Assembly (NCBI GenBank): GCA_009937445.1 | Contig: JAACFM010000005.1 | Coordinates: 1 to 55,147, forward strand | From: Gammaproteobacteria bacterium | Lineage (GTDB): Bacteria; Pseudomonadota; Gammaproteobacteria; Steroidobacterales; Woeseiaceae | DNA: 55,147 bases | Direction: 5' to 3' | Shown: piece by piece, positions 3,530 to 28,752 of the stretch | How positions within the stretch are numbered: the first letter of the stretch is position 1 | Layout: each line of letters opens with the position of its first letter | Position numbers and translations under genes: made by a program | The notes under the pieces: generated by a model | Told to the model about the DNA's origin: nothing | Database searches by the model: none | Seen by the model: only the letters and a program-made list of their open reading frames with translations

Positions 3530-4810
3530 CTACTGCTTGTTCTTGTAGACAACGCCACCCTTCATCACGAAATCGACGTCTTCCAGCTCGCTGATGTCAG
3601 CAATCGGATCGCCGTGCACTGCAATAATATCTGCGAATTGTCCGGGCTCGATCTTGCCAACTTTGTCCGCCCAACCAAGGAGTTCGGCCGCCAATGAAGT
3701 CGCCGACATGATGGCCTGCTCCGGCGTCATACCAAAGCGAACTGCGCGGGCAAATTGTTTGCCATTATCACCGTGCGGATACACGCCGGAGTCTGTGGCA
3801 AAGACGACCTTGGCACCCATATTGACAGCGAGTGTGAAGCTCTGCCGCTGTACTGTGCCGACCTCATGTTCCTTGTTGATGTTTTCTTCTGGCACGCCAT
3901 TTGCCGGGCCCATCTCCAACGTGTACTCGGTATTGTAGATATCGATCGCGAAATAGGTGCCGCGGTCAATGCCCATCTGGATTGCTTCGCGGTCCAGAAA
4001 GCTCGCATGCTCGATAGAATCGACGCCGGCAGTAATGGCTCTCTTGATGCCTTCATTTCCGTGCGCGTGGGCGGCAACCTTGCGCCCGTGTGTGTGCGAC
4101 TCATCGACGATCGCCTGCATTTCTTCGAGCGTGTATTGCGTCATACCAACTTTGGTACCTTTCGAGAACACACCGCCGGTGCCACAAAATTTCGTCAGGT
4201 CGGTCCCGTATTTCACATTCTCCCGGACCTTTGCGCGTGCTTCCCAGGGACCATCCGCCACGCCATCGCTACGCTCATTAAACGATGCGTTCAGGGCATT
4301 GTTGTCGCAATGACCGCCGGTAATGCCGAGACTCGGCCCGGAAACAGCCATGCGCGGGCCCGGCACTTCGCCCGCATTGATGGCGTTACGCAATGCAACG
4401 TCAGCATAGTCGGGCGCACCCACATTTCTGATGGTTGTGAAGCCGGCCATGAGGGTCTTTTCAGCGTTCACGACACCGCCAATCGTCGCCCGGTGCGGGG
4501 ACTGGAAATAACCGGCGAAGAAGTAGTTATCCAGATTGCCCACAACATGCGTATGCATATCCATCACGCCAGGCAAGACAAATGACGACGACAGATCGAT
4601 AACTTCCGCGCCATCCGGAATCTGCGTTCTGGAGTCACCAACCGCGATAATCTTGTCGTCTTCAACAACAATTACCGCATTTTTGCTGACCTTGCCGTTG
4701 CTTGAATCGAACAGCGAGCCGGCCTTGATGATCGTAATTTCACCAGCAACAGCCGACGTACTCAGTAGCGCGGCGACGAGAGCCGCGCCTACTATGGAAT
4801 TTCCTTGCAT
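3530..4810 (-). CDS. Secreted metal-dependent amidohydrolase
   Basis: A 426-residue amidohydrolase-superfamily enzyme of the imidazolonepropionase/Xaa-Pro dipeptidase-like type. Residues 1-22 form a signal peptide ending ...STSAVAG, so it should act in the periplasm. The metal site is seen as MDMHTH (HxH), HAHGNEGIKRAI and a following IEHASF, and the late catalytic Asp in FATDSGVYPHG. An AGAGGAT-like ribosome site (RC of 4817-4824) precedes the ATG. It lies 29 bases downstream of the methyltransferase gene and 5 bases upstream of dbpA. The family hydrolyses amide or peptide bonds such as N-acyl amino acids or X-Pro dipeptides; the substrate here is unknown. Confidence 0.85.
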   Translation of the reverse strand: MQGNSIVGAALVAALLSTSAVAGEITIIKAGSLFDSSNGKVSKNAVIVVEDDKIIAVGDSRTQIPDGAEVIDLSSSFVLPGVMDMHTHVVGNLDNYFFAGYFQSPHRATIGGVVNAEKTLMAGFTTIRNVGAPDYADVALRNAINAGEVPGPRMAVSGPSLGITGGHCDNNALNASFNERSDGVADGPWEARAKVRENVKYGTDLTKFCGTGGVFSKGTKVGMTQYTLEEMQAIVDESHTHGRKVAAHAHGNEGIKRAITAGVDSIEHASFLDREAIQMGIDRGTYFAIDIYNTEYTLEMGPANGVPEENINKEHEVGTVQRQSFTLAVNMGAKVVFATDSGVYPHGDNGKQFARAVRFGMTPEQAIMSATSLAAELLGWADKVGKIEPGQFADIIAVHGDPIADISELEDVDFVMKGGVVYKNKQ

Positions 4811-4839: not shown

Positions 4840-6384
4840 CTATCGCATCTTCTCTCGCGGTAGTTGAATACTTAGCCGCGAACGGATCTCTGCGTCTATC
4901 TGCTCGGAAATGTGCTGCGGGCGACTGCCAGCGAGAATCTCTTCAACTTTCTTCTTCGCCCGCTGCAATACATCGGTCGATCCCTGTTCGGCCCAGTCCT
5001 TCGGGCTCAGCCGATCGCCCACTTCCGGGTAAACATAGTCGCGCTTCATCAGGTTGAGGGTTTGGTCGTGACCCAGGTAATGAACGGGCCCCTCCAGACA
5101 AACTTCCCGCATCGTTTCGAAAGACAGGCTGTCCGCATTCACCTCAATACCGCGAATCGTGCGATTGATAGCGCCGAGCATATCGTTATCGATAACGTAG
5201 CCTTCAAGGCTGGTTCCCAAGAGACTCCCCTGCATGCCCGCGGATTCGTATACAAGATTGGCGCCGCAGTGACCTGCCAGCGTGTTGGTATAGCCTTTCT
5301 CATAACCTGACTGCGCGTCGGGTATCTTCGAGTCAGCCATGCCAGCCGCTATTCCGGTCGGCAGATCATAGTGCCGCCCCATCTGACCACACGCAGCCAT
5401 CAATACCGCCTGTTCTCCGCTACCGCCGCTCATGGCACCGGTTCTGAGATCGGAAACAAATGGCCAGGTACCAAAAATCGCCGGATGCTTCGGTGCCAGA
5501 AGATTGACGTACACGAGGCCCGCAAGAACTTCTGCAACTTCCTGCACGACGGCCCCGGCCAGAGACGCCGGACTGGTCGCGCCCGCCTGACCGGCAGCGA
5601 GTAATAAAATAGGCATCCCGCCGCGAACACAGGTCTCCATCACGTGGCAAGCGTCCTCCGCAAAACGCAGTGGCGGCACGACGAAGCAACACGACAGGCT
5701 CGCGAACGGTCGCTCACGCCACTTATCTTCACCGCCGGCAATCATGTGCAGCATGGAGAGACCGGCTTCCGCATTTTCCGGCTTGATAAAACTCAGGCCG
5801 ATGTGCTTGCTGGTTCCGGATGCACACGCATAAGCGGTGTTGATGTCCATATCCATGGACGACGCCATGTCCCGCGGAACCAGTGATCGCTGATAGAAAT
5901 GAATGTGGTCCATCTCGTTGACAATGCAGGCGACGTCATAGAGATCAGACAGTGTCGATTCACGATACTCCCGCGTTTCGCAGTCCACCATGTGCACCGC
6001 GGCCCCGGCAGTACCGAAGTGGGTACTCGTACCGCTGAGCAGCATGTCGTATTTGGGGTCCTGGCCGAAAAGGGTGATGTTGCGGGCGGCGTTGGCGATG
6101 GTATCTTCGACCAGAGCGCGCGGGAACAAAAGGCGACCTTCGTCCGAGTAGCTGCCGCCAGCAGCCGTTACCAGTTCGATGCTGCTCGGTATCGCATTCG
6201 CCAGACCGATCTTTTCCAAGACATCCAGAACCGCGCTATGGATTAGCTCAACATCAGTTTCGGACAGCGGTTGGTAGCGACCGCTGGACATACCCGGACG
6301 CACCGCCCTTTCTTCGTCCGGCGTTGGCGCTGCATGGAGCGCCTTGCGAGCCGCGCGACCTCCTCTACGACGAGTATCAGCCAT
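4840..6384 (-). CDS. MttB-family (trimethylamine methyltransferase-like) protein, non-pyrrolysine type
   Basis: A 514-residue TIM-barrel protein of the COG5598/MttB family. Recognisable parts are an Arg/Ala-rich N-terminus followed by MSSGRYQPLSETDVELIHSA, and the body with ITLFGQDPKYDM, GTAGAAVHMVDCETREYR and AGHCGANLVYESAGMQGS. Archaeal MttB carries pyrrolysine encoded by an in-frame amber codon; this frame reads straight through without one, so it belongs to the non-Pyl group, whose characterised members demethylate quaternary amines such as glycine betaine, carnitine or proline betaine using a corrinoid protein. No corrinoid-binding protein or reactivase is visible in the window. It is the first gene of the minus-strand run and is divergent from two FAD/GcvT dehydrogenases, which strongly suggests a methylated-amine role. 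Confidence 0.87.
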   Translation of the reverse strand: MADTRRRGGRAARKALHAAPTPDEERAVRPGMSSGRYQPLSETDVELIHSAVLDVLEKIGLANAIPSSIELVTAAGGSYSDEGRLLFPRALVEDTIANAARNITLFGQDPKYDMLLSGTSTHFGTAGAAVHMVDCETREYRESTLSDLYDVACIVNEMDHIHFYQRSLVPRDMASSMDMDINTAYACASGTSKHIGLSFIKPENAEAGLSMLHMIAGGEDKWRERPFASLSCCFVVPPLRFAEDACHVMETCVRGGMPILLLAAGQAGATSPASLAGAVVQEVAEVLAGLVYVNLLAPKHPAIFGTWPFVSDLRTGAMSGGSGEQAVLMAACGQMGRHYDLPTGIAAGMADSKIPDAQSGYEKGYTNTLAGHCGANLVYESAGMQGSLLGTSLEGYVIDNDMLGAINRTIRGIEVNADSLSFETMREVCLEGPVHYLGHDQTLNLMKRDYVYPEVGDRLSPKDWAEQGSTDVLQRAKKKVEEILAGSRPQHISEQIDAEIRSRLSIQLPREKMR

Positions 6385-6423
6385 CTCTTGCCCTCAGTAA
6401 CGATTCTGCGCAAGATAGCTGTA

Positions 6424-6440
6424 GATCAACTGATGATCAA
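6424..6440. promoter_or_regulatory. Direct repeat GATCAA x2, 11-base period, in the divergent promoter region
   Basis: GATCAA at 6424-6429 and again at 6435-6440, one helical turn apart. They lie just upstream of a TATAAT, where a -35 box would be. This layout suits a transcription factor binding site between the divergent methyltransferase and dehydrogenase genes. No regulator gene is adjacent. Confidence 0.35.
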
Positions 6441-6447
6441 TCAAAAC

Positions 6448-6453
6448 TATAAT
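6448..6453 (+). promoter_or_regulatory. Putative -10 box (TATAAT) for the dehydrogenase operon
   Basis: A perfect TATAAT 18 bases before the ATG at 6471, with no recognisable -35 hexamer at 16-18 bases upstream. A GAGGGAG ribosome site follows. The missing -35 suggests an activator-dependent promoter using the GATCAA repeats. Confidence 0.4.
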
Positions 6454-6470
6454 CATTTGAGGGAGCTCGC

Positions 6471-8870
6471 ATGACCACACATGCTCGAATCGCCATCGTA
6501 GGTGGCGGCATAATGGGTGCCGGACTGCTGTATCACCTTGCAGAACAAGGATGTAGCGATGCCATATTGATCGAAAAAGGCGAGCTGACTTCCGGCTCTA
6601 CCTGGCATGCCGCAGGCCAATGCCCGAGCTTCGTCGGCAACTACAACCTCTCAAAAATTCATGCTTACACCATCGATCTCGCGAAGAAACTGGAGGACAT
6701 GACCGGCCAGAGTGTCAATTGGCATCAGAGCGGCGGCATTCGTCTTGCGACCAATCAGGAAGAGCTTGACTGGTTTCATTTCATCAAGGGCTTCGACGAC
6801 AACTGCGGATCAAAGACCGAGATTATCAGCGTTGATGAAATTCAACGCCTCCATCCGTTCCTGACAACCGACGGTGTACTCGCCGGTGCCCACACCACCA
6901 ACGACGGCCACATAGACCCGTCGAGCATGTGCCAGGCGCTCGCCAAGGCCGCCCGTAGCCTGGGCGCGAAAATCCAGCGGCACAACCGGGTAACGGACAT
7001 TCGCGCATTGCCGAGTGGCGAGTGGGAAGTCGCCACCGAAAAAGGCAACATTGTCGCCGAGATTGTCGTCAATGCGGCTGGTTGTTTTGCCCGAACCGTT
7101 GCACAGATGGTGGGCACTGACGTTCCGGTAACGAGTGTCGAGCATCAGTACGTGGTGACAGGACCCGTGCAGGAGTTCATCGACAGGGACGAAGAGGTCC
7201 CGGTCATACGAGACCCTTATGCGTCCTGCTATGTTCGGCAAGACCAGAACTCGGGTCTGATCGGCATCTATGAGAATATTGATCTCGCCGAGCCCTGGTT
7301 ACCCAGCGGCATACCGCCATGGGAATCGGACAGCGAGCTGTTTCCCGACAATCTCGAACGCATAATGCCGTGGCTGGAGCGAGCACTTGAGCGCATGCCA
7401 ATCCTCGCAGACGCCGGTATCCGCCGGGTTGTTAACGGCGCAATTACACACACACCCGATGGTTTACCCCTCCTCGGTCCTGCCGCCGGTATAAGAAACT
7501 ACTGGATGGCCTGCGGCTCGTCATTCGGCATCGCCCAGGGCGCTGGCTGCGGCAAATATCTGGCGCAGTGGATGCTCGACGGTGATGCAGAAATTAATAT
7601 GACCGGGTTCGATCCGCGTCGCTTTGGTGCCTATGCCGACGAGTCGTACACACGCGCAAAAGTGTTTCAGGATTACGGCAGAACCTATGCGTCCACGCTT
7701 CCCGGTGAAGAACTTCCCGCGGGCCGCCCAAGGCGCACCAGCCCCCTGTATACAACGCTCAAACAACACGGCTGTGTGTACACGGAAGGTTTCGGCTGGG
7801 AGAGGCCCAAGTGGTTCTCGCTCGACGGACGCGAAGAAGACTACAGTCATCGACGCAACAACATTTTCGACCTTATAGCCGCTGAATGCCGGGCGGTCCG
7901 CGAAGCAGCCGGACTTACGGACCTGAGCGGCTTCGCAAAATACGAGGTTTCGGGAGCGGATGCCGGTGATTATCTTGAGCGCGTTTTCGCCAACAAGATG
8001 CCGGGTAAAGTCGGGGGCATTACGCTCGCTCATTTCGTTTCGGCAAACGGCAGAATTGCGGGCGAAGCAACGGTCACCCGCATCGACGATAACGCTTACT
8101 ATATTTTGTCTGCCGCATCGGCCGAACTGCGGGATCTGGACCACCTGACCCAAGCCAAAAATGACGATGATGATGTCACGATCGAAAACGTGACCGATCA
8201 GCGCGGTGCTTTGGTCCTTGCCGGTCCGCGATCGCGAGACATCCTCGCGAAACTCACCGACGCCGATCTGTCCAATGAGGCATTTCCCTGGCTGACGTCC
8301 CAGGAAATCAGTATCAACGGTGCTCCTGTGCGCGCGCTGCGCGTCAACTATGTCGGTGAGCTGGGCTGGGAGTTGCATCCCGCAAACGAAACCATGAGCG
8401 GACTTTACGATGCGCTCTGGCAAGCGGGTAAAGATGCGGGCATTCGTGACGTCGGGCTCTATGCCGTCAATAGCCTGCGAATGGAAAAAGCCTACCGTGG
8501 CTGGGGCGCGGAACTGACAAATGAAGTGACTCTCACGGATGCCGACATGGCGCGCTTCGATCGCAGAAGCGACGCAGAAAAACAGCGCGACAAGAGCTGT
8601 GGATTTCGTCTGGTCTATCTGGACGTCGCGACCAGTGATTCAGATGTGCGCGGTGGCGAACCGGTTTACCTCGACGATCGGTGCATCGGCGTTACGACCT
8701 CCGGAGGCTATGGCCACCACGTCGGCAAGAGCCTCGCATTCGCCTACGTCGAAACAGATCATTCCAAAGCAGACACAAGGTTCGGTATCGACATGCTCGG
8801 TGAACGTTGCAATGCCGTCGTCTTATCCGAGCCCGTCTACGATCCCAAAAACCTGAAGCTCAAGAGCTGA
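6471..8870 (+). CDS. FAD-dependent dehydrogenase with GcvT domain (dimethylglycine/sarcosine dehydrogenase-like), first copy
   Basis: A 799-residue two-part enzyme. Residues 1 to about 400 are a DAO-type FAD domain (IVGGGIMGAG near residue 9). GSTWHAAG places His46 at the residue that carries covalently bound FAD in dimethylglycine dehydrogenase. Residues from about 420 form an aminomethyltransferase (GcvT) domain expected to bind tetrahydrofolate and capture the methyl group as 5,10-methylene-THF. In this copy the Asp that normally sits in the GGIxxD motif of the folate site is Glu532 (IAGEATV). The segment after VNSLRMEKAYRGW also departs from the usual TPLEAGL-type sequence. One base separates it from the next gene, a paralogue. 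Substrate: an N-methyl amine, not determinable from sequence. Confidence 0.85.
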   Translation: MTTHARIAIVGGGIMGAGLLYHLAEQGCSDAILIEKGELTSGSTWHAAGQCPSFVGNYNLSKIHAYTIDLAKKLEDMTGQSVNWHQSGGIRLATNQEELDWFHFIKGFDDNCGSKTEIISVDEIQRLHPFLTTDGVLAGAHTTNDGHIDPSSMCQALAKAARSLGAKIQRHNRVTDIRALPSGEWEVATEKGNIVAEIVVNAAGCFARTVAQMVGTDVPVTSVEHQYVVTGPVQEFIDRDEEVPVIRDPYASCYVRQDQNSGLIGIYENIDLAEPWLPSGIPPWESDSELFPDNLERIMPWLERALERMPILADAGIRRVVNGAITHTPDGLPLLGPAAGIRNYWMACGSSFGIAQGAGCGKYLAQWMLDGDAEINMTGFDPRRFGAYADESYTRAKVFQDYGRTYASTLPGEELPAGRPRRTSPLYTTLKQHGCVYTEGFGWERPKWFSLDGREEDYSHRRNNIFDLIAAECRAVREAAGLTDLSGFAKYEVSGADAGDYLERVFANKMPGKVGGITLAHFVSANGRIAGEATVTRIDDNAYYILSAASAELRDLDHLTQAKNDDDDVTIENVTDQRGALVLAGPRSRDILAKLTDADLSNEAFPWLTSQEISINGAPVRALRVNYVGELGWELHPANETMSGLYDALWQAGKDAGIRDVGLYAVNSLRMEKAYRGWGAELTNEVTLTDADMARFDRRSDAEKQRDKSCGFRLVYLDVATSDSDVRGGEPVYLDDRCIGVTTSGGYGHHVGKSLAFAYVETDHSKADTRFGIDMLGERCNAVVLSEPVYDPKNLKLKS

Positions 8871-8871
8871 G

Positions 8872-11319
8872 ATGAGTAACGAACTTCCCAAAAAAGCGCG
8901 CGTCGTTATCGTCGGCGGTGGCGTAATCGGCTGTTCGGTCGCCTATCATCTGGCGAAGATCGGTTGGACCGATGTTGTCCTGCTCGAGCGTCAGCAGCTG
9001 GCTTGCGGCACGACCTGGCATGCTGCCGGACTGGTCGGACAGTTGCGTCCTTCGATGAACATGACACGGCTGGCCCGTTACACGCGTGAACTCTACGAGG
9101 ACCTCGAAGCCGAAACCGGCCAGGCCACCGGTTATCACCAGAGCGGCTCGATCTCCATTGCCGTTAACGAAGAGCGCTTTGAAGAACTCAGGCGCAGTGC
9201 TTCGATGGCCAAGGTTTTCGGGCTCGAAGTTAATGTGATTACGCAATCCGATATCCGCGACCGTGCACCTTTGTTGCACACAGATGACGTCATTGGTGGT
9301 ATCCACATTCCCTCTGACGGCTACGCCAATGCCATCGACGTAACACAGGCATTGGCCAAGGGTGCACGCGAAGGTGGCGTACAGATAGTCCAGAACTGCA
9401 AAGTCACTGCGATCCATCAGGACGACGGAAAAATTAGTGGGGTTACGACAGAACAGGGCCGGATCGACGCAGACTACGTTGTGCTCTGTGGCGGCTTATG
9501 GACTCGTGACCTTGCTGCCTCAATTGGCGTGAACGTGCCACTGCATGCCTGCGAGCATTATTACGTTTTGTTCGAGAACGTCGCAGGACTGCAGAAGGAC
9601 ATGCCGGTACTGCGGGACTATGACGCCTGCACGTATTACAAATACGATGCCGGGAAACTCATGGTTGGCGCTTTCGAGCCGCAAGCACGCCCCTGGGGAA
9701 TGAATGGCATTCCGGAAGATTTCAGCTTCGATGAGATCCCCGGCAACTTCGAACACATGGAGCCCGTCCTCGAACAGGCGATGCAACGTGTGCCCGCTTT
9801 ACAGGACGCCGGCATAAAGACGTTTTTCTGCGGCCCCGAGAGCTTCACACCCGATGTTCGATATCACCTCGGCGAGGCGCCGGAGATCAAGAACTGTTTC
9901 GTCGCCGCCGGGCTGAACTCGATCGGCCTGCAATCGGCGGGTGGCATCGGCAAGGTACTTGCAGAGTGGATCAGGGACGGACGACCTCCGGCGGATCTTT
10001 GGGAAGTCGACGTTCGTCGCGCCATGCCGTTCCAGGGCAACCGCAACTATCTTCGCGAACGCGTGACGGAGAGCCTTGGCCTCTTGTATGCGACGCATTG
10101 GCCGTTCCGTCAGTACGAGACAGCTCGGGGCGTGCGCAAGTCGCCGCTCTATGACCGGCTGTGTGCCGCGGGTGCCTGCCATGGTGAGGCATTTGGCTGG
10201 GAGCGGCCTAATTGGTATGCGCCGGAGGGCACTGCACCCGAGTATGAGTACAGCTATTTTCGCCAGAACTGGTTTGAGCACTCCGCTCGTGAGCACCAAG
10301 CGGTGCGGGAAGGCGTCGGCCTGTTTGATCTTTCCTCATTCGCCAAATTCAGACTCGAAGGACCGGATGCCGTTGATGTGCTCAACCGCATCGCGGCGAA
10401 TGACATCGATGTTAGGCCGGGACGAATGGTCTACACACAATGGCTCAACGAAAAAGGCGGAATCGAGGCGGACCTGACCGTCACGAGGCTGGAGCGCGAC
10501 TGCTTTCTTATCGTCACGGCGGCCGAAACAGAGATCAAGGACTTCAACTGGCTGCAGAAGAACATTCCGGCCGAAGCGAGATGTATCGCGACCAACGTAG
10601 GCTCAGCGATGTCCGTAATAGCCATCATGGGCCCACGCTCGCGAGAGTTGTTGCAGCAACTAAGTCTTGCAGACCTGTCGAACGACGCCTTCCCGTTTGC
10701 GAGCAGCCAGGAAATCGAACTCGGCTTTGCCAACGTCAGGGCATCCCGAATATCTTTCGTCGGAGAACTGGGCTGGGAGTTGTACATTCCCACAGAATTC
10801 ACCCTTGGCGTTTACGATGCGATCGTCGCTGCAGGCGAGGAATTCGGACTTGTTCATGCGGGCTACCATGCGCTGAACTCCTTGCGCATTGAAAAAGGCT
10901 ATCGCCATTGGAGCCACGACATCACAGATGAAGACAGTCCGCTGGAAGCCGGTCTGGGCTTCGCTGTGAAGTTCGACAAGCAAGGTGGATTCAGCGGCCG
11001 GGAAGCGCTGCTCGCGCAGAAAGAAAAGGGACTGACGCGACGCTTGCTACAGTTTCTGCTCGACGATCCTGAGCCACTGCTCTACCACAACGAGCCCATT
11101 TGGCGGAACGACGAGATCGTCGGCCATATAACATCGGGTATGTACGGACACACGCTGGGTGCCGCAGTTGGACTCGGATACGTACACCAGGCTCCGGGTG
11201 AGGATAACGAGTCACTGCTTGGCGGGCCTTACGAAATCGAAGTGGCGGGCAAGAAGATCAAAGCGAAGGCTTCATTGCAGCCTATGTATGACCCCAAAAA
11301 TGAACGGATGCGAAAATGA
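8872..11319 (+). CDS. FAD-dependent dehydrogenase with GcvT domain (dimethylglycine/sarcosine dehydrogenase-like), second copy
   Basis: An 815-residue paralogue of the preceding protein with the same order: DAO-type FAD domain (VIVGGGVIGCS at the N-terminus; GTTWHAAG with His50 at the covalent-flavin position) and a C-terminal GcvT folate domain. Unlike the first copy it keeps the folate-site Asp (Asp534 in GGIEADLTV) and the usual ending SLRIEKGYRHW...SPLEAGLGFAVKFDK. This makes it the more orthodox member of the pair. It starts one base after the upstream stop and overlaps the thioesterase start by 4 bases (ATGA), so the three genes are almost certainly translated from one mRNA. Confidence 0.88.
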   Translation: MSNELPKKARVVIVGGGVIGCSVAYHLAKIGWTDVVLLERQQLACGTTWHAAGLVGQLRPSMNMTRLARYTRELYEDLEAETGQATGYHQSGSISIAVNEERFEELRRSASMAKVFGLEVNVITQSDIRDRAPLLHTDDVIGGIHIPSDGYANAIDVTQALAKGAREGGVQIVQNCKVTAIHQDDGKISGVTTEQGRIDADYVVLCGGLWTRDLAASIGVNVPLHACEHYYVLFENVAGLQKDMPVLRDYDACTYYKYDAGKLMVGAFEPQARPWGMNGIPEDFSFDEIPGNFEHMEPVLEQAMQRVPALQDAGIKTFFCGPESFTPDVRYHLGEAPEIKNCFVAAGLNSIGLQSAGGIGKVLAEWIRDGRPPADLWEVDVRRAMPFQGNRNYLRERVTESLGLLYATHWPFRQYETARGVRKSPLYDRLCAAGACHGEAFGWERPNWYAPEGTAPEYEYSYFRQNWFEHSAREHQAVREGVGLFDLSSFAKFRLEGPDAVDVLNRIAANDIDVRPGRMVYTQWLNEKGGIEADLTVTRLERDCFLIVTAAETEIKDFNWLQKNIPAEARCIATNVGSAMSVIAIMGPRSRELLQQLSLADLSNDAFPFASSQEIELGFANVRASRISFVGELGWELYIPTEFTLGVYDAIVAAGEEFGLVHAGYHALNSLRIEKGYRHWSHDITDEDSPLEAGLGFAVKFDKQGGFSGREALLAQKEKGLTRRLLQFLLDDPEPLLYHNEPIWRNDEIVGHITSGMYGHTLGAAVGLGYVHQAPGEDNESLLGGPYEIEVAGKKIKAKASLQPMYDPKNERMRK

Positions 11320-11744
11320 GCAAGAACGTCATGATCAGCTGTTACAAGGGGATGGCCCAACCCTGGTTTTGCGATGTCATGGGCCACATGAATATTCGCC
11401 ACTATATGGCGATGTTCGACGAATCGTCATACCAGATGTTATTCGAAGTATTCGGCTGGACCGGCAACCCCGACAACAACGGTGGACAAGGCTGGGCTGA
11501 TGTTAAACATGTCATCGAGTATCAGGCTGAAGTTCACGCTGGCGATCTGCTTGAGGTGAAGGGTTGCTTGACGAAAGTCGGCAACAAGTCGATTGGCATT
11601 CGCTATGAGATGATCAACTCCGCCAAAAACGAGCTGGCTGCGACGCTCGAATGTGTATGCGTTCTTATTGATCTTCAGAGTCGAGACGCGGTCGCTCTTT
11701 CTGATGAGCAACGAGAGCGGGCAGCGAAGTATATCGGGGAATAG
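11316..11744 (+). CDS. Hotdog-fold acyl-CoA thioesterase
   Basis: A 142-residue 4HBT-type thioesterase. The N-terminal motif WFCDVMGHMNIRHYM matches the DxxGHxNN-like start of the fold, with an Asp and the GHMN turn. It overlaps the preceding gene by ATGA. Because a betainyl-CoA thioesterase of this fold feeds glycine betaine into demethylation in carnitine-degrading bacteria, a similar role is possible here. That is inference from context, and a general acyl-CoA thioesterase cannot be excluded. It converges with the helicase gene, with 104 bases between. Confidence 0.8.
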   Translation: MSKNVMISCYKGMAQPWFCDVMGHMNIRHYMAMFDESSYQMLFEVFGWTGNPDNNGGQGWADVKHVIEYQAEVHAGDLLEVKGCLTKVGNKSIGIRYEMINSAKNELAATLECVCVLIDLQSRDAVALSDEQRERAAKYIGE

Positions 11745-13877: not shown

Positions 13878-15281
13878 ATGCTTGGATTTATCGACACAGG
13901 CATCATCTTCGCCTACCTGGCGCTGATGATAGCCATCGGAGTTTATGCGAGTCGCCACCAGAGCAGCGTGGAAGATTTTTTCCTCGCTGGCGGAAAACTG
14001 GGCTCCATTTCTATTGCCTGTCTTTGGCTGGCCTCCTGGGTTGGTGGTGCTGCAATTGTAGGTGGTGTTGCAAAAACACATGAATTCGGGATATCGGGTG
14101 GCTGGTACATCACCTGTATGGCGATCGGCTGCCTGTTGTTTGGTCTTCTGTTCGCCGCACGACTAAAGCGGATGGGCGAAGAACATGGGTTGCTGACATA
14201 TCCGGACTTCATTGAGATACGCTACGACAGTCGCACCCGAGTTGTCGCGACAATAACAACCATCCTCGCTTATGTTGGATATTCGGCGGGCCAACTCGCC
14301 GCCGCCGGCGCCGTATTAAGCACTCTCCTCGGTTGGGATTATTCCACGTCGCTTTTGCTTGCCTGTTCAATCATCGTGGTCTACACCGCGACAGGCGGGT
14401 TCCTCGCAGTCACCTACACAGACTGGGTGCAGATCAGTTTACTGTTTGTCGGCGTGGTGATTGTCGGAATTCCGGTCGCAATTTCAAACGGCGGAACCTG
14501 GGAGGCATTTACTACGCAGCTGCCAGCGGCGCACTTCAGCCCAACCGGGTGGGGCCTGCCAACGATGCTGGCACTGGGCATCTCAATCCCCTTGAGTTTT
14601 TTCGTGGCGATGGACGGTTTCACAAGAATGTTTGCTGCGAAAAGTGCCGCCGTAGCGCGGCGCGGTACTCTTCTGGCAGCATTGATCCTGCTGCCTCTGG
14701 TAATTGGAGCAACCTGGCTCGGTCTCACAGCCGCCCTGCTTTATCCGGGTGCTGACAGCAGCGGGGACATTTTGTCGCAGCTGGTCATAGACCTTTTCCC
14801 GGTTGGCTTGAAGGGCCTGATGCTGGTTGGCGTGCTCGCAGCCCTCATGTCGACCGCTGATATCTGTATTCTCACGGCGGCTGCAAATGGCAGTCGCGAT
14901 ATTTACCAGCGTTACATGAACCCGGACGTGTCGCCCAAGAAGCTGTTTCGTTTAAGCATGTATCTCGCGGCGATCGTTGGCTTGGCCTCCGGACTATTGG
15001 CATGGCAGATGCAGGACGTTATTGGCATTTTGCTGCTCGCATTTACGGTTAACGCTGCCGCGCTATTTGTGCCAACGATCGCGATGGTGACGCTTAAGAA
15101 GGTCAATACCAACGCCGCATTCTGGAGTATTGCCCTGGCATTGAGCACCGTCGTTGCGTGGTATGGCGCATCTGTCATGGATCTCGCGCCCGTATTCCAA
15201 AATGATCCGCTTTGGTCGGGTTTGATGGTATCCATAGTCGTTTTTTTCAGTATCAGTCTGCTAGGGAATAAAGCAGAGTGA
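13878..15281 (+). CDS. Sodium:solute symporter family transporter
   Basis: A 467-residue SSS-family permease with about 13 hydrophobic helices. The beginning (YASRHQSSVEDFFLAGGKLG) is the diagnostic motif after helix 1, and STADICILTAAANGSRDIYQRY in the second half is the conserved helix 8/9 region. Members import sugars, amino acids, carboxylates, proline or choline-like compounds with Na+. It heads a three-gene unit with 4-base overlaps to a 2-hydroxyacid dehydrogenase and an aminotransferase, so an amino acid or hydroxy/keto acid substrate is likely. No strong ribosome site is seen before the ATG. Confidence 0.88.
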   Translation: MLGFIDTGIIFAYLALMIAIGVYASRHQSSVEDFFLAGGKLGSISIACLWLASWVGGAAIVGGVAKTHEFGISGGWYITCMAIGCLLFGLLFAARLKRMGEEHGLLTYPDFIEIRYDSRTRVVATITTILAYVGYSAGQLAAAGAVLSTLLGWDYSTSLLLACSIIVVYTATGGFLAVTYTDWVQISLLFVGVVIVGIPVAISNGGTWEAFTTQLPAAHFSPTGWGLPTMLALGISIPLSFFVAMDGFTRMFAAKSAAVARRGTLLAALILLPLVIGATWLGLTAALLYPGADSSGDILSQLVIDLFPVGLKGLMLVGVLAALMSTADICILTAAANGSRDIYQRYMNPDVSPKKLFRLSMYLAAIVGLASGLLAWQMQDVIGILLLAFTVNAAALFVPTIAMVTLKKVNTNAAFWSIALALSTVVAWYGASVMDLAPVFQNDPLWSGLMVSIVVFFSISLLGNKAE

Positions 15282-16249
15282 CACGCGTCGTCCTCACAGA
15301 ACCACCGGAGTGCGCAGGACGTGACCTTGGCGTTGAGCGTTCGATTCTCGGTCCAGATATCGAACTTGTGCAATACATCTGCGACGACAATGAGGAGCAT
15401 CTCATTTCAGCCTGCAGGGACGCCGACGTCATACTGACAGCGTTCTCGCCTTTGACCCGAAAAGTCATAGAACAGTTAACCCACTGCCGGCTTATTTCAG
15501 TAACCGCTACCGGATACGGCAATGTCGATCTGGAGGCGGCGGCGGACGGCGGAATCCGGGTCTGTGCCATCGATGAATACTGCACCGAAGAAGTCGCTGA
15601 TCACGCCCTATTACTCATGCTTGCCCTCTGCAGGCGCTTGCCCGAATATCATAAGCAGGTTCAGGAGGACAGGAACTGGCAGTTCGATTCTTTGCAGGGC
15701 CTGTCGCGCATGCGAGACCAGACACTCGGTATCATAGGATTCGGGCGGATCGGTCAGGCGGTTGCCCGGCGTGCGCAGGGATTCGGCATGACGATCATGG
15801 CTTTCGATCCGTATCCGAATGAAGCGGTGATCGCTGATCTGGGCGCTCGTTCCTGCACTTTGGCAGAGCTGTATGCCGCTGCTGACATCATCAGCCTTAA
15901 CTGCGGTCTGACGGGCGACAACGAACATCTGATCGATAAAAACGCATTTGGGCAAATGCAACGCAGCCCTATAATCATTAATTGCGCGCGCGGCGCATTA
16001 ATAGATGAAGCAGCGATGGTGAGTGCGCTCGACACAGGACAGATATCCGGGGCCGGCCTCGATGTGTTGAAAGATGAGTCTCCGGATTTAGCCGCATCGA
16101 AACTGATGGGGCGCAGCAATGTCATTTTGACGCCACACATCGCTTTTTATTCCGATGCATCAATGCTGGATAATCGGACGATATCAACGACCAACGTGCG
16201 TAACTTTCTGGACGGCAAAGACGAAGACGTAAGGCGGTATGTAGTATGA
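15278..16249 (+). CDS. D-isomer-specific 2-hydroxyacid dehydrogenase
   Basis: A 323-residue NAD(P)-dependent reductase/dehydrogenase interconverting 2-hydroxy and 2-oxo acids. Features: Rossmann GIIGFGRIG near residue 155, EEVADHALLLMLALCRR before it, and the catalytic set Arg in NCARGALID, Glu in LKDES and His in TPHIAFYSD. The overall style resembles the C-terminal-binding-protein/phosphoglycerate dehydrogenase-like branch. It begins with GTG at 15278, overlapping the symporter stop (GTGA), and ends overlapping the aminotransferase ATG (ATGA), which implies translational coupling. Confidence 0.9.
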   Translation: MTRVVLTEPPECAGRDLGVERSILGPDIELVQYICDDNEEHLISACRDADVILTAFSPLTRKVIEQLTHCRLISVTATGYGNVDLEAAADGGIRVCAIDEYCTEEVADHALLLMLALCRRLPEYHKQVQEDRNWQFDSLQGLSRMRDQTLGIIGFGRIGQAVARRAQGFGMTIMAFDPYPNEAVIADLGARSCTLAELYAAADIISLNCGLTGDNEHLIDKNAFGQMQRSPIIINCARGALIDEAAMVSALDTGQISGAGLDVLKDESPDLAASKLMGRSNVILTPHIAFYSDASMLDNRTISTTNVRNFLDGKDEDVRRYVV

Positions 16250-17388
16250 GCAAGACGGTAACATTCGACGGTGCTGCACCTGTTGGCACGATTAATTTCG
16301 GCATAGGTCAGCCGTCTGCAGACCTCTTGCCAGTCGACCTTGTGAAAACCGCCAGCCAGTCTTTTTTTGACGAAGCTCAACCGTTCGAACTGAACTATGG
16401 AGTAACACAGGGCGACGCACGATTTCTTCAATCACTGGCCGGCTTCCTGACAAGCAGCTACGGCGCTCCAGCAACAAGCGACCAGCTAATTGTCACGGGC
16501 GGTAACTCTCAGGGGCTCGACCTCGTGTCGGTTGTTTTTGCCAACCCGGGCGACACCGTTTTTGTCGAAGAGCCGAGTTATTTTCTCGCTTTCCAGATTT
16601 TTCGCGATCACGGTTTAAACATTGTCGGGATCCCTGTCGACGATGACGGTTTGTCGGTCGATGCATTGCAGGAGGCGTTGAAGTCCCATAAACCTGCATT
16701 CCTGTACACCATACCGAGCTATCACAATCCCGGCGGGCAAAGCACAACTGAAGACCGTCGGCGACGGATCGTAGAACTGGCCGACGAATATGATTTTCTC
16801 ATCGTTGCGGACGAGGTTTATCAGCTTCTCTATTACTACGATAAGCCGCCCGCGGCCTATGGCACGATGTCGGCCAGTGAGCGCGTTCTATCGCTGGGAT
16901 CCTTTTCGAAAATCCTGGCGCCCGGATTACGACTGGGCTGGATTCAGACATCCGAACGCCTGTTAGGTCAGATCAAGGCGCACGGCTTTATCAATAGCGG
17001 CGGCAGTATTAATCACATCAGTTCGCTCATCGTACGCAAGGCGATCGACAACGGGTCTCTCGAGACACACATTGAGTCTCTGCGACACAGCTATCGCAGC
17101 AGAGTGGAAGCCATGGACGCCGCGTTGCACGAGCACTTTGACGGTATCGCAGAATGGACCCGGCCGGACGGCGGCTACTTTTTCTGGCTCCGGTTTGACG
17201 AATCCGTTGACACCGCGCCGCTTCGCGAAAAAGCCCGCGCGGTCCAGGCCGGATTTCAGGGTGGCACTGTCTTCTCGAGCCAGGGACAGTTACGCAATTA
17301 CCTGCGCCTCAGTTTTGCTCACTACGGTGAGGATGATATTCGCGAAGGTATTGCCCGCTTGCGGTCACTTTTTTCGAAGATAAAGTGA
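16246..17388 (+). CDS. PLP-dependent class I/II aminotransferase
   Basis: A 380-residue fold-type I aminotransferase of the 2-aminoadipate/MocR-like branch without a DNA-binding domain. Lys222 in GSFSKILAPGLRLGW is the PLP lysine; IVADEVYQLL holds the Asp/Tyr that contact PLP, and PSYHNPGGQ is the substrate loop. With the dehydrogenase and symporter directly upstream, the set would import an amino acid or 2-oxo/2-hydroxy acid and interconvert the keto, hydroxy and amino forms. Substrate unknown. Confidence 0.88.
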   Translation: MSKTVTFDGAAPVGTINFGIGQPSADLLPVDLVKTASQSFFDEAQPFELNYGVTQGDARFLQSLAGFLTSSYGAPATSDQLIVTGGNSQGLDLVSVVFANPGDTVFVEEPSYFLAFQIFRDHGLNIVGIPVDDDGLSVDALQEALKSHKPAFLYTIPSYHNPGGQSTTEDRRRRIVELADEYDFLIVADEVYQLLYYYDKPPAAYGTMSASERVLSLGSFSKILAPGLRLGWIQTSERLLGQIKAHGFINSGGSINHISSLIVRKAIDNGSLETHIESLRHSYRSRVEAMDAALHEHFDGIAEWTRPDGGYFFWLRFDESVDTAPLREKARAVQAGFQGGTVFSSQGQLRNYLRLSFAHYGEDDIREGIARLRSLFSKIK

Positions 17389-20910: not shown

Positions 20911-21717
20911 TTACTCTTCCTTCTCAGGGTTGTTTGTTTCGGACTCGAAGTCCGATACGTGCTTTCTCAAAACTGCCAGCTGACCGTAGGCGAGTACCGA
21001 AATTATCGGAAACAAGCTCGCGAACGCTACCAGACCAAATCCATCAAGCAATGCGCTACGTCCCGGTACGGCTTCAGACAAACCGAGCCCAAGCGCTGTA
21101 ACCAGGGGTACCGTGACGGTAGATGTCGTTACGGCGCCAGAGTCATAGGCAAGCGGAATAATCAATTTGGGGGCTATTATCGTTTGCAGAATCACCACAA
21201 AGTATCCGGCAGCCACGAAATAATGCAGTGGCAACCCGGTGATGATTCGGTAGCAACCAAGACTTACTCCTATGCTGACGCCAATTGCGACCGCGACGCG
21301 CAAACCCCATACGCCGATTGCTCCACCCGAAACCTCATTGGCTTTCATCGAAACCGCAATGAGTGCCGGTTCGGCAAGCGTCGTACTGAACCCGATCGCC
21401 AGTGCGAATATATAGACCCAGTAGTAGTCCTGCCAAACAAGGTCCGCTGTTAGCTTGCCTGCGGACTCGTACAGAAATTCCGGATCAGTCAGCTGCTGAG
21501 CCATTAGCTTACCCAGCGGAAACAGGGTCTCCTCCAGTCCATCAAGAAACAACCCGAGCCCAATGACGACGAACACAAATCCGACCACGATTTGCCGACC
21601 ATTGGCCAGCGGCTCTCCTATGACGAGTCGCTGGAACGCGAACAGGAAGATAGCGATAGGCAACACGTCGATCGCGCTCGCAAAAATAAATTCCAGCGCA
21701 CTGACTATCATATCCAT
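20911..21717 (-). CDS. DUF1538 membrane protein, second copy
   Basis: A 268-residue polytopic membrane protein. The DUF1538 signature block is visible: FGTTLAEPALIAVSMKANEVSGG-like residues, and near the end TTSTVTVPLVTALGLGLSE followed by LLDGFGLVAFASLFPIISVL. It is homologous to the gene just upstream, whose end it overlaps by 10 bases. In many genomes two such halves occur in one longer polypeptide; here they are separate genes. A transport function is likely from topology and the PII partner; the substrate is unknown. Confidence 0.85.
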   Translation of the reverse strand: MDMIVSALEFIFASAIDVLPIAIFLFAFQRLVIGEPLANGRQIVVGFVFVVIGLGLFLDGLEETLFPLGKLMAQQLTDPEFLYESAGKLTADLVWQDYYWVYIFALAIGFSTTLAEPALIAVSMKANEVSGGAIGVWGLRVAVAIGVSIGVSLGCYRIITGLPLHYFVAAGYFVVILQTIIAPKLIIPLAYDSGAVTTSTVTVPLVTALGLGLSEAVPGRSALLDGFGLVAFASLFPIISVLAYGQLAVLRKHVSDFESETNNPEKEE

Positions 21718-22568
21718 TGCTGTACGGTTCCATAAGCGAGTACGAACAGGATAGGCGCCAGTGCAGCAAACGCAATCAGTCCAAAACCGTCAGTCAACGG
21801 ATTTCGTCCGCGGAGCGAGCTCGCAAGGCCGACTCCAAGCGCGGTAACGAGCGGCACGGTAACGGTCGAGGTCGTTACGCCTCCTAAGTCATAAGCGACA
21901 CCGACAATCTCCGGCGGTGCGATGGTCGTCATAATCACGACGAGGCAATAGCCAGTGATAATCATGACCGGTAAAGACCAATTGGCCAGAATTCTCACCA
22001 CACCGACAACCAGCGCAACACCAACGGCCAGGGCCACTGTCAGCCGCAGGCCCTGAGCGTATGCCTTTTTAGCCTCATCGGATGGAAGAATCACATCGGC
22101 CCCGGCTGCGACTTCTGCCGCCTCGGCCGCGATTGCAATTAGTGCCGGTTCTGCGATGGTTGTTCCAAATCCGAGCGCGAATGCAAACGCGACCAGCCAG
22201 AATACGCTGCCCTTTTTTGCCAGTGAATAGGCGAGCCCTTCACCGACGGGGAAAAGCGCGAGACGCAAACCGAAAATGAAAAAGGTCAGACCGGCAACAA
22301 CGAGTAGCGCGCCTCCTGCCATATCGAGAAGAGCCGTCGCCGAATCGCGAAACACGAACAGCTGGAAAACACTGATAACAACAGCGATCGGCAGCAAATC
22401 ACGCAGGCTGCCCATGGCGTCCCTAGCTAATGCAATCAGCGAGTCTTTCAATGTAGCCTCAATCCCTGTTAGTACATGAGCGGCCGTATCCAGTATTCTG
22501 AGGTCAGAACACGGCGGCCCGCGTTTGTTAGTGTAATGTTCTCCTGCGGATGAGGCTATTGAATTCAT
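21708..22568 (-). CDS. DUF1538 membrane protein, first copy
   Basis: About 286 residues, the paralogous half of the pair. It contains LRDLLPIAVVISVFQLFVFRD, TTIAEPALIAIAAEAAEVAAG and the repeated block TTSTVTVPLVTALGVGLAS with PLTDGFGLIAFAALAPIL. The frame continues upstream to 22637 but then overlaps the divergent kinase gene; the ATG at 22568 leaves 20 bases to that gene. No good ribosome site is present at that ATG, so a later start (for example before LTGIEATLKDSLI) is possible. It leads the DUF1538-DUF1538-PII-CBS operon. Confidence 0.8.
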   Translation of the reverse strand: MNSIASSAGEHYTNKRGPPCSDLRILDTAAHVLTGIEATLKDSLIALARDAMGSLRDLLPIAVVISVFQLFVFRDSATALLDMAGGALLVVAGLTFFIFGLRLALFPVGEGLAYSLAKKGSVFWLVAFAFALGFGTTIAEPALIAIAAEAAEVAAGADVILPSDEAKKAYAQGLRLTVALAVGVALVVGVVRILANWSLPVMIITGYCLVVIMTTIAPPEIVGVAYDLGGVTTSTVTVPLVTALGVGLASSLRGRNPLTDGFGLIAFAALAPILFVLAYGTVQQWI

Positions 22569-22588
22569 TAATGGAAGCTGAGTAAAAA

Positions 22589-23668
22589 ATGACTGCGAAT
22601 CAGGACAACCGGGAACTCGGTAAACCGGTCGAAGCACTTATGCTTGATGAGCGCGCGCTCGCTGACTATCTCGTCGATCACATTGCGGGCTTTGAGCGCG
22701 ACTGTTCGATTCAACAGTTCCTGGGCGGGCAGTCCAATCCAACCTACCTGATTGAATCTGGAAACAAAGCCTACGTTTTGCGGAAGAAGCCGCCCGGCGA
22801 CCTGTTGCCTTCGGCCCATGCGGTTGATCGCGAGTATCGGATCATCTCGGCGCTGGCTGGGTCTGAGGTACCCGTCCCACACGCCCATCTGCTGTGCGCA
22901 GACGAGAGTGTTATCGGCCAGATGTTCTATGTCATGGACTACGTTCCTGGGCGCGTCCCTGCCGAGCGCGGCATGCCCGGTTACACGACGACAGACCGCA
23001 GAGATATGTATCACGAGATGGCCAAGGTTCTTGGCAAGCTGCACAGAATTGACTATCAATCTGCTGGTCTTGAATCTTTCGGCAAGCCCAATGCGTATGT
23101 TTCTCGTCAGGTGCGCCGCTGGGCCGGGCAATACACTGCATCCAAAATCGAAGAGTGCCGTCCCATGGACGAGCTGATTGCCTGGCTTCCGGAGAACGAC
23201 CCGGACGACGGCTATTCATCGATCGTTCATGGCGACTATCGACCGGGCAATATTATCTTCAGGAATGACAGCCCCAAGTTAGCAGCGGTTCTTGACTGGG
23301 AACTCTCAACCATAGGACACCCACTCGCGGATCTTGGATACTTCTTCATGCCCCACCGGGTTGATGCGGCAACAACGCCGTACGGACTGCAAGGCATGGA
23401 CCTTGAACAACTGGGCATCCCATCCGAAACAGCGCTGTTGGAGACCTACGCGTCCAGCGCCGGTCGGAAAGAAGTACCTGACATCGACTACTACATCGTA
23501 TTTTCGATGTTCAGGCTGGCCGCCATTCTCGCCGGTGTCATGCGGCGCGGCCTGGACGGTAATGCAGCGGATCCTCGGGCTGTCGAACGAGGCAAGAGCT
23601 ACCAGCAAATCGCATCAACCGCGATGGCGATTGCTAATGCGAATTATCGGTATAATACCCCCACCTAG
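22589..23668 (+). CDS. Phosphotransferase family protein (APH fold, ACAD10/11-like kinase)
   Basis: A 359-residue aminoglycoside phosphotransferase-fold kinase. QFLGGQSNPTYLIESG is the nucleotide loop, YVLRKKPPG supplies the ATP-binding Lys, VHGDYRPGNIIF contains catalytic Asp216, and AVLDWELSTIGHPLADLGYF is the metal-binding DxD-like segment. The bacterial branch resembles the kinase domain of ACAD10/11, which phosphorylates 4-hydroxyacyl-CoAs in animals. No acyl-CoA dehydrogenase is adjacent here, so the substrate is uncertain. Divergent from the DUF1538 operon. Confidence 0.85.
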   Translation: MTANQDNRELGKPVEALMLDERALADYLVDHIAGFERDCSIQQFLGGQSNPTYLIESGNKAYVLRKKPPGDLLPSAHAVDREYRIISALAGSEVPVPHAHLLCADESVIGQMFYVMDYVPGRVPAERGMPGYTTTDRRDMYHEMAKVLGKLHRIDYQSAGLESFGKPNAYVSRQVRRWAGQYTASKIEECRPMDELIAWLPENDPDDGYSSIVHGDYRPGNIIFRNDSPKLAAVLDWELSTIGHPLADLGYFFMPHRVDAATTPYGLQGMDLEQLGIPSETALLETYASSAGRKEVPDIDYYIVFSMFRLAAILAGVMRRGLDGNAADPRAVERGKSYQQIASTAMAIANANYRYNTPT

Positions 23669-25574: not shown

Positions 25575-27137
25575 TCAGGCAGCGTCAGATCGAACCTTGC
25601 TCTTCGGCAGGTTTTCGTGCGTCGCCAGAGCTCCCGCCATACAGGCAACACTCCCGCCGGGGTGCGTTCCACTACCGCACAGTGTCAGCCCCTGGACAGG
25701 TGTTGTGTGATCGAAGCATTCCGGAATTGGCCGAACCAGGATCTGATCCAACCCTGGCTCACCATGATGCAGGTGGCCTCCAGGTAAGCCATACTCACTC
25801 GCCAGATCGGCTGGTGTTGATAATTTCGTCGCTATTACTCGCCGCTCAAAGCCCGGCGCGAACTCGGTAATTACATCGACGACGCTATTCGTCAAGGTCG
25901 CCCTTGCTGCATCGTTCCAACCGCCTTCAGGTTCGAACGGCGCGTAGCTGACCATAACACTAACGACATTCTTGCCATCTGGCGCCAGATTCGGTCTTTC
26001 GATACTGGGAATCGTGATATCCAGAACAGGTGCTTCCGAGAACCCCCTGTATTTGACCGCATCGAACGCCTTCTCAACATGGTCGAGCGTCGGCGCAATG
26101 CGTGCGTGGCTTATGGTTTGATCTTTACTCGCCGCCTCGAATAACACCGGTCCATCAACCGCGAGAAGCAGATGTGCGGTCGTTCCGTTGCATCTGAAGT
26201 TGGAAATTCGGTCTGCCGTTGTGTGCGTGAGCGCTGCAACAGGAAGCAAGTCGAGCAGCACAGTCTTAGGGTTAATACTCGCACTTACGGCCGCCACTTT
26301 TACGATGTCGCCGTTTTCGAGCTCAACACCTTCAACCGATTTATTGTCGACGAGTATTCTGCTGACAGCCTGGCCACACCTGAAACTCACGCCAAGATCA
26401 CGCGCCCGTTTGATCAGCGCATCAGTCAATCCGAGGCTACCGCCCTTGATCGACAAGCCTGACATCGATTCGTGCATGAGTAAGTTCGTTGTCGTGCCCG
26501 GAGAGCGCGGCGCGGCGAAAGTGCCCAGTAGAGAGTTCAGCGACAAAGCGCCTTTGATGAAGTCCGATTCAAAGTACTCACTCAGAAAATCACTGACCGG
26601 CATGGGTGCGACTCGAAGCAGTTCCACCATATCGTGTGCGCCCAGTCGTCGCAGCCCCAGCGCGCGCGTCAACAGCTCCATTGGCGCTTCACTCTCAACC
26701 GCCATCAGATTAAGCGGGCGCTCAGTGAGAAAACGCGAAATGACCGGGCGAATTCGACGCATGAATTCGCGATAACGCAGATAGCCTTTTCCATCGGCTC
26801 GGCTGACTTCGTTAAGACCAAAAACCGTGCGATCGACGGGTCCGGAAACAGGCGCGATGCGGCCAGACTCGCCGAGTGCATACACCGTCTCGGACTCATT
26901 CTGGATCAGGCTGTCCAGACGCAGCAATTTCATCACCGCTTCTGTGACGTTGCCTGTTTCATGCCAGATGCCGGCGCTCTTGAAGCCGGGTTCAAATTCG
27001 ATAGAAGCCGCAAGACCACCAAGGTCATTGCGTTTCTCCACCAGTACTACCCGTTTGCCGCTCATCGCCAAAAGGCAAGCGTTCGTGAGGCCATTGTGGC
27101 CGCCGCCAATTACAACTACGTCGAATTGATGCTTCAT
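25575..27137 (-). CDS. Phytoene desaturase-like (PYROXD2-type) FAD oxidoreductase, distal copy
   Basis: A 520-residue flavoprotein. The dinucleotide motif VVVIGGGHNGLTNA is at the N-terminus, followed by LVEKRNDLGGLA, and the C-terminal FAD segment is LTLCGSGTHPGGSVACMAG. This is the carotenoid-oxidase/PYROXD2-like branch of the amine oxidase superfamily; bacterial members have mostly unknown substrates. The frame extends to 27224, but the ATG at 27137 overlaps the stop of the upstream gene by 4 bases and directly precedes the Rossmann strand. Paralogue of that neighbour. Confidence 0.85.
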   Translation of the reverse strand: MKHQFDVVVIGGGHNGLTNACLLAMSGKRVVLVEKRNDLGGLAASIEFEPGFKSAGIWHETGNVTEAVMKLLRLDSLIQNESETVYALGESGRIAPVSGPVDRTVFGLNEVSRADGKGYLRYREFMRRIRPVISRFLTERPLNLMAVESEAPMELLTRALGLRRLGAHDMVELLRVAPMPVSDFLSEYFESDFIKGALSLNSLLGTFAAPRSPGTTTNLLMHESMSGLSIKGGSLGLTDALIKRARDLGVSFRCGQAVSRILVDNKSVEGVELENGDIVKVAAVSASINPKTVLLDLLPVAALTHTTADRISNFRCNGTTAHLLLAVDGPVLFEAASKDQTISHARIAPTLDHVEKAFDAVKYRGFSEAPVLDITIPSIERPNLAPDGKNVVSVMVSYAPFEPEGGWNDAARATLTNSVVDVITEFAPGFERRVIATKLSTPADLASEYGLPGGHLHHGEPGLDQILVRPIPECFDHTTPVQGLTLCGSGTHPGGSVACMAGALATHENLPKSKVRSDAA

Positions 27138-28750: not shown

Positions 28751-28752
28751 GG

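Follow-up and report, generated by a model that had tools for sequence, protein, structure and literature searches.

The window, as we call the whole stretch of 55,147 nt that was analysed, carries a gene for a non-pyrrolysine methyltransferase of the MttB superfamily, which faces a tight operon of two FAD- and folate-domain dehydrogenases (DMG1 and DMG2) and a thioesterase (Table 1). DMG1 and DMG2 are 1 bp apart, and DMG2 overlaps the thioesterase gene by 4 bp. A first-pass annotation of this DNA had described the same genes in the same arrangement, and its description was borne out by the open reading frames and their domains. A consensus scan found no sigma-70-like site in the divergent gap, and the promoter scan gave fewer matches than expected from shuffling.

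Table 1. Position and identity of the features at the MttB locus
Feature	Coordinates	Strand	Basis
Xaa-Pro dipeptidase-type amidohydrolase	3530..4810	-	NF051886, 569 bits (cut-off 500)
MttB-superfamily non-pyrrolysine methyltransferase, 514 aa	4840..6384	-	PF06253, 379 bits; below TIGR02369 cut-off
Divergent intergenic region, MttB to DMG1, 86 bp	6385..6470	.	measured gap
DMG1, FAD + folate-domain demethylating dehydrogenase, 799 aa	6471..8870	+	DAO, FAO_M, GCV_T, GCV_T_C
DMG2, paralogous FAD + folate-domain demethylating dehydrogenase, 815 aa	8872..11319	+	DAO, FAO_M, GCV_T, GCV_T_C
4HBT_2 thioesterase, 142 aa	11316..11744	+	PF13279, 64 bits

The PF06253 profile spans residues 6-501 of the window MttB. 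The score against TIGR02369, the model of the pyrrolysine-containing trimethylamine MttB, was 355 bits, below the cut-off of 525. The frame contains no internal stop codon, and in the alignment a Met sits opposite the pyrrolysine (X) of 7xcl. A pyrrolysine enzyme was rejected on these grounds, and the non-pyrrolysine identity claimed earlier holds. The pyrrolysine trimethylamine methyltransferase 7xcl (181 bits) and the non-pyrrolysine MtgB of Desulfitobacterium hafniense (9yce, 2qne) belong to the same superfamily; the score of the window protein to 9yce, 185 bits, barely exceeds that to 7xcl.

DMG1 and DMG2 matched the mitochondrial dimethylglycine dehydrogenase 5l46 at 628 and 515 bits, respectively, and both aligned over nearly the full length with 5l46 and with the dimethylglycine oxidase 1pj5. 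Both proteins retain the WHAAG stretch known from dimethylglycine dehydrogenase; we take its His to be the flavin-bearing residue. One acidic alignment column, presumably that of a residue in the folate site of dimethylglycine oxidase, is Glu in DMG1 and Asp in DMG2. The window differs from these known systems in having two paralogues in tandem, whose substrates are predicted ones. The thioesterase gave a weak match (36/592 bits) to the carnitine 3-dehydrogenase model NF005716, in the C-terminal part of that model, and is possibly a betainyl-CoA thioesterase.

The Xaa-Pro dipeptidase-type gene lies on the same strand as MttB, 29 bp 3' of it, and the two are probably co-transcribed. Its tie to a demethylation pathway is doubtful. 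The gene was included among the neighbourhood queries described below, and relatives of it were absent from every relative locus listed; it was thus rejected as a conserved partner of MttB, and a proline-betaine reading is therefore without support.

Elsewhere in the window, genes for an SSF symporter, a D-2-hydroxyacid dehydrogenase and a class I/II aminotransferase overlap by 4 bp (13878-17388, plus strand). They were rejected as components of the module: among the loci compared, only that of G008 (L045) has close relatives of the dehydrogenase and the aminotransferase beside it. On the minus strand, two FAD oxidoreductases, one of the flavin amine oxidoreductase family, are followed by a stand-alone GcvT-type protein (25575-29943), whose match to the TMAO demethylase model (282/1100 bits) lies in the C-terminal part of that model. 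This may be another folate-linked demethylation locus. Two DUF1538 proteins are encoded in tandem at 20911-22637 (minus strand).

Corrinoid machinery outside the window

The window corresponds to the whole of contig C162 in a draft genome of 175 contigs and 3.29 Mb, which is ~90% complete. A profile search of C162 for B12-binding_2 (PF02607) and B12-binding (PF02310) gave no match. Since C162 is exactly the window, the absence of a corrinoid protein from the window, as noted in the first-pass annotation, is real. Its headline of a methyltransferase with no corrinoid partner fails for the genome: the whole-genome search for corrinoid and RamA proteins, which it had itself proposed, found both on contig C82. 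PF02607 had three matches in the genome, namely a MetH-size frame on C62 and frames of 230-240 aa on C130 and C82, and PF02310 had eight, these three together with one on C147 and four on C21. The only match to the RACo_C_ter activase domain lies on C82.

The C82 array (L040, 1557-11834) is encoded on one strand and comprises three MttB genes, an MTHFR-domain protein, a RACo-type activase, a methyltransferase, a small Virulence_fact-domain protein, a DUF1638 protein and the corrinoid protein. The methyltransferase is of the methyl-H4F:corrinoid type (PRK07535, 367 bits against a cut-off of 259). The corrinoid protein is stand-alone, ~230 aa long, and matches B12-binding_2 at 57 bits and B12-binding at 90 bits; its score to NF047996, 204 bits, is under the cut-off of 370. 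Proteins like MtgC, MtgD and the activase are all encoded, on C82, in the same genome as the window MttB. A genome devoid of corrinoid machinery was thus rejected, and the apparent puzzle of an MttB without a corrinoid protein is removed. Because such a corrinoid carrier is encoded on another contig, the genes of the window probably represent a variation on a pathway described recently, rather than a novel system that works without B12.

The genome encodes five MttB proteins, which share 25-46% identity: the window copy, the three on C82 and a fifth on C59. The neighbours of the fifth are a DMGDH-type gene, a betaine-aldehyde dehydrogenase and a BKACE-type gene, a label that we assigned at 236/382 bits to the nearest NCBIfam cleavage-enzyme model. 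On C130 (L041, 2-4871), the second stand-alone corrinoid protein lies beside creatininase/IolN-like and L-sulfolactate-dehydrogenase-like genes, all below their cut-offs. Genes similar to this set adjoin an MttB_c operon in G012 (L055).

A survey of 149 draft genomes, our own included, gave 30 genomes with an MttB match at E 1e-120 or better and 60 with a C82-type corrinoid protein at 1e-45 or better. The corrinoid protein was present in 28 of the 30 MttB genomes and in 32 of the 119 others (Fisher p = 1.6e-11). According to the MttB tree, five of the 30 (G002, G012, G069, G082 and G126) have only relatives of the C82c paralogue. In the stricter set without these five, 24 of 25 genomes with a window-type MttB encoded the corrinoid protein, against 36 of 124 (p = 2e-10). 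DMG2 relatives with at least 70% identity were found in 22 genomes, 21 of which have MttB; these 21 are within the 25. Both the 25-genome subset and the 70% line for DMG2 were chosen after the results had been seen. The DMG2 homologue of G132 (contig C45; L172, 2043-4630) is spread across several reading frames and contains an internal TAG, by assembly error or decay.

The two MttB genomes in which no C82-type corrinoid protein was found, G077 and G126, are 82% and 88% complete. G143 and G099, which have the closest MttB in the 149-genome search, carry the corrinoid gene on a separate contig, as our own genome does. A further 17 genomes with window-type MttB were sampled by choice from the best 80 of 549 confirmed loci. 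Fourteen of these encode a C82-type corrinoid protein, one has a MetH-like match only and two have neither, so that no C82-type protein was found in five genomes in all (G077, G126, G155, G159 and G161). The pairing of corrinoid protein and MttB is one of co-occurrence, not of binding, and the C82 protein is a candidate partner.

Neighbourhoods and phylogeny of the relatives

Features within 10 kb of MttB were tallied in 106 loci: 18 from close relatives, 14 from Mesorhizobium/Aminobacter and 74 others. The wider set of MttB loci consisted of the best 80 of 549 confirmed ones. The 18 close-relative loci represent 18 of the 22 genomes of their clade (all except G033, G039, G077 and G086) and, being mutually related, do not represent independent events. 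The 74 include the order mates G143 and G099, and the tally leaves out L055, which has a C82c-type MttB, and L169, which has no full MttB. The split into 18 and 74 loci was made after the results had been seen.

Conserved neighbourhoods were the test that the first-pass annotation had named for its own reading, with loss of the pairing in relatives as the refuting result, and the outcome was mixed. The MttB gene had a DMGDH-family neighbour in 17 of the 18 close-relative loci and in 41 of the 74 others listed, but in none of the 14 Mesorhizobium/Aminobacter loci, which had none of the tallied neighbours within 10 kb, and in none of the seven that make up the nearest MttB group (L062-L065, L067, L068 and L077; flanks short in L062 and L064). 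Many contigs end early, and the neighbour counts are therefore lower bounds. When the count was restricted to loci with flanks of 5 kb or more on each side, a DMGDH gene was centred within 5 kb in 22 of 32 others, 11 of 13 close relatives and 0 of 14 Mesorhizobium/Aminobacter loci. When Mesorhizobium/Aminobacter is counted once, the pairing is found in 58 of 94 loci.

The other neighbours differed between the groups. The close-relative loci had a corrinoid gene in 12 cases, a BKACE-type gene in nine and a carnitine dehydrogenase in six (two tested, 711 and 719 bits, cut-off 592). A methylmalonate-semialdehyde dehydrogenase lies near DMG2 in 4 of these 18 loci (one tested, 674 bits against 448.5). 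The 74 other loci listed had a GbdR-like regulator in 13 cases (two tested, 341 and 327 bits, both short of the 480-bit cut-off), an MtgE-like homocysteine methyltransferase in five (that of L101, the one tested, matches PF02574), a corrinoid gene in four, BetA in three and BADH in one. In L089, betaine-aldehyde and choline dehydrogenase genes lie upstream of MttB-DMG1. The thioesterase homologue adjoins a BKACE-type gene in 8 of 11 contexts (L154-L164), which were taken from 11 of the 21 other genomes with a match, and a further context, L053, likewise has BKACE. No BKACE gene is present at the window locus.

In the MttB tree, the window protein groups among gammaproteobacterial copies with a support of 92, and of 97 for a 31-row set in a second tree. 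The MttB proteins of 22 genus, family and order mates form a separate clade (support 100). Other order mates are placed elsewhere: G143 and G099 in the wider set, and five genomes with C82c-like copies. DMG1 and DMG2, by contrast, group with the mates of that separate clade, each with a support of 100. Forcing the window MttB into the 22-row clade was disfavoured (AU p = 0.036) in the second tree, which left out 13 Mesorhizobium/Aminobacter rows and seven long rows. The AU-tested group was picked after the tree had been seen, and the evidence is therefore moderate. A window MttB of other ancestry may have replaced the resident MttB, with or without MtgC, beside an inherited dehydrogenase pair, C82 covering the corrinoid function; differential loss of two old MttB paralogues could also have led to this pattern. 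An exchange, if real, would suggest that both MttB groups do the same job.

Predicted pathway and substrate

Aerobic demethylation of glycine betaine by MtgB, MtgC and MtgD has been reported for Ruegeria pomeroyi, with proteomics and mtgC and mtgD mutants (Mausz et al. 2025, PNAS, PMC12478193). The authors also report that genes for later demethylation steps frequently lie close to mtgBCD, and that a genome can carry as many as seven PF06253 genes together with mtgC and mtgD. Since an aerobic MtgBCD system is already published, the present locus belongs to a published kind. Other papers describe an MttB-MttC structure (PMC9842639), non-pyrrolysine MttB homologues in a sponge community (PMC9999580) and MtgB homologues in a cold seep (PMC8547467).

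We propose that the cluster is a bacterial kit for stripping a quaternary amine, glycine betaine being the likeliest, of its N-methyl groups, with the corrinoid function supplied from C82; on balance we favour this proposal over the others considered. Its general class, corrinoid- and folate-linked demethylation, we consider likely. In the order of steps that we infer, MttB would transfer the first methyl group to Co(I) of the MtgC-like corrinoid protein, supplied in trans from C82. The MtgD-like methyltransferase of C82 would pass it from the corrinoid to tetrahydrofolate, and the RamA/AcsV-like activase, also of C82, would re-reduce the cobalt. DMG1 and DMG2 would then take off the second and third methyl groups by oxidation, as methylene-tetrahydrofolate, which would lead from dimethylglycine through sarcosine to glycine. 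The thioesterase may free glycine betaine from the betainyl-CoA of carnitine breakdown. The first-pass annotation had already suggested that MttB and folate-linked dehydrogenases may deal with successive methyl groups in an aerobic pathway; this idea fits the recurring pairing and the published aerobic MtgBCD work.

The R. pomeroyi DSS-3 system resembles this proposal in being aerobic, in using a non-pyrrolysine PF06253 protein, in encoding MtgC, MtgD, RamA and DUF1638 apart, and in being followed by dimethylglycine and sarcosine demethylation (PMC12478193). The window differs in that its MttB lies beside two DMGDH-type genes and a thioesterase and has no mtgC. That paper gives SPO2108 and SPO2134 as the copies induced by glycine betaine; our comparison was with the megaplasmid copy, to which the window MttB is 48-49% identical.

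Glycine betaine is a metabolite common to choline oxidation and carnitine breakdown. The carnitine genes in one group of loci and the GbdR-like, choline and betaine-aldehyde dehydrogenase genes in the other point to it as the shared compound. For both the thioesterase and GbdR, the link comes from neighbours in other genomes. The route of carnitine 3-dehydrogenase, BKACE and thioesterase resembles the module in the operon thioesterase and in the BKACE-type and carnitine dehydrogenase genes beside it in relatives. It differs in that our own ~90% complete genome had no carnitine dehydrogenase match at E 1e-20 and carries its BKACE-type gene on another contig, C59. For the window cluster, we regard glycine betaine as substrate as about evenly balanced.

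The C59 paralogue points the other way. It scored 443 bits to MtgB 9yce, against 185 bits for the window protein, and relatives with at least 63% identity to it occur in 16 of the 17 sampled genomes (one split in two pieces), the 17th having one of only 54%. As this copy is far closer to a proven MtgB and is common in the sampled genomes, the window MttB may serve another betaine. The module would then carry out a corrinoid-linked three-step demethylation of, for example, gamma-butyrobetaine, beta-alanine betaine or taurine betaine, and the C59 MttB would serve glycine betaine. We consider this possible but clearly less probable than the reading with glycine betaine. PMC12478193 suggests that multiple PF06253 genes per genome serve diverse methylated compounds, which agrees with it. 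So do amine-like contexts such as the methylmalonate-semialdehyde dehydrogenase near DMG2 and a cluster on the R. pomeroyi megaplasmid (L059, 11944-21264), in which MttB is found with a class III aminotransferase, two DMGDH-type genes and a sulfoacetaldehyde-acetyltransferase-like gene (401/620 bits, below the family cut-off), beside a divergent LysR gene. This is a candidate cluster of the taurine-betaine type; we found no literature on its genes by title, and none on taurine betaine using that term. Against another betaine stand the GbdR-like regulators and the choline and carnitine genes beside the same module, and in the MttB tree the copy of R. pomeroyi falls outside the main clade, on a long branch. 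Tentatively, window-type MttB could form an uncharacterised group of betaine:corrinoid methyltransferases whose substrate is not glycine betaine. They would be firmly coupled to a dedicated pair of folate-linked demethylases, so that a trimethylated amine is taken to the primary amine aerobically, and would be exchangeable between lineages through a shared MtgC hub.

It is unlikely that MttB and the dehydrogenases are neighbours without a shared function, the dehydrogenases taking dimethylglycine and sarcosine from elsewhere. The pairing is missing in the nearest MttB relatives and in Mesorhizobium/Aminobacter, and the grouping of MttB in trees differs from that of the dehydrogenase pair, as such a reading would have it; but the pairing recurs in the close-relative and other loci at the frequencies given above, and MttB is present in all but one of the genomes with a DMG2 relative at the 70% line. 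A corrinoid-free demethylase, in which folate or the GcvT domains of DMG1 and DMG2 would accept the methyl groups straight from MttB, is highly improbable: only the local absence of a corrinoid gene and the five genomes lacking a detected C82-type protein, two of them incomplete, speak for it, whereas the genome encodes a corrinoid protein, an activase and a methyltransferase, MttB co-occurs strongly with the corrinoid protein and, to our knowledge, characterised MttB-family members are corrinoid users.

A search by title and abstract, which fell short of most subscription journals, found no published module of MttB with two DMGDH genes. As far as this search shows, the window-type MttB group, its wiring to a double dehydrogenase and the possible partner exchange are new here. 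The locus is a possible example of MttB-type enzymes being swapped around one corrinoid hub in proteobacteria. The role of several PF06253 paralogues per genome, a question raised in PMC12478193, becomes directly testable with so compact a module. If its substrate is not glycine betaine, this widespread group would offer a testable marker for the turnover of another betaine. Near the choline and betaine genes of L089 (15927-17789) lies a gene for a protein of 620 aa. Its N-terminus is weakly of the methylcobalamin:CoM-methyltransferase type and its C-terminus is a corrinoid one, and we take the protein to be CmuA-like from its domain layout.
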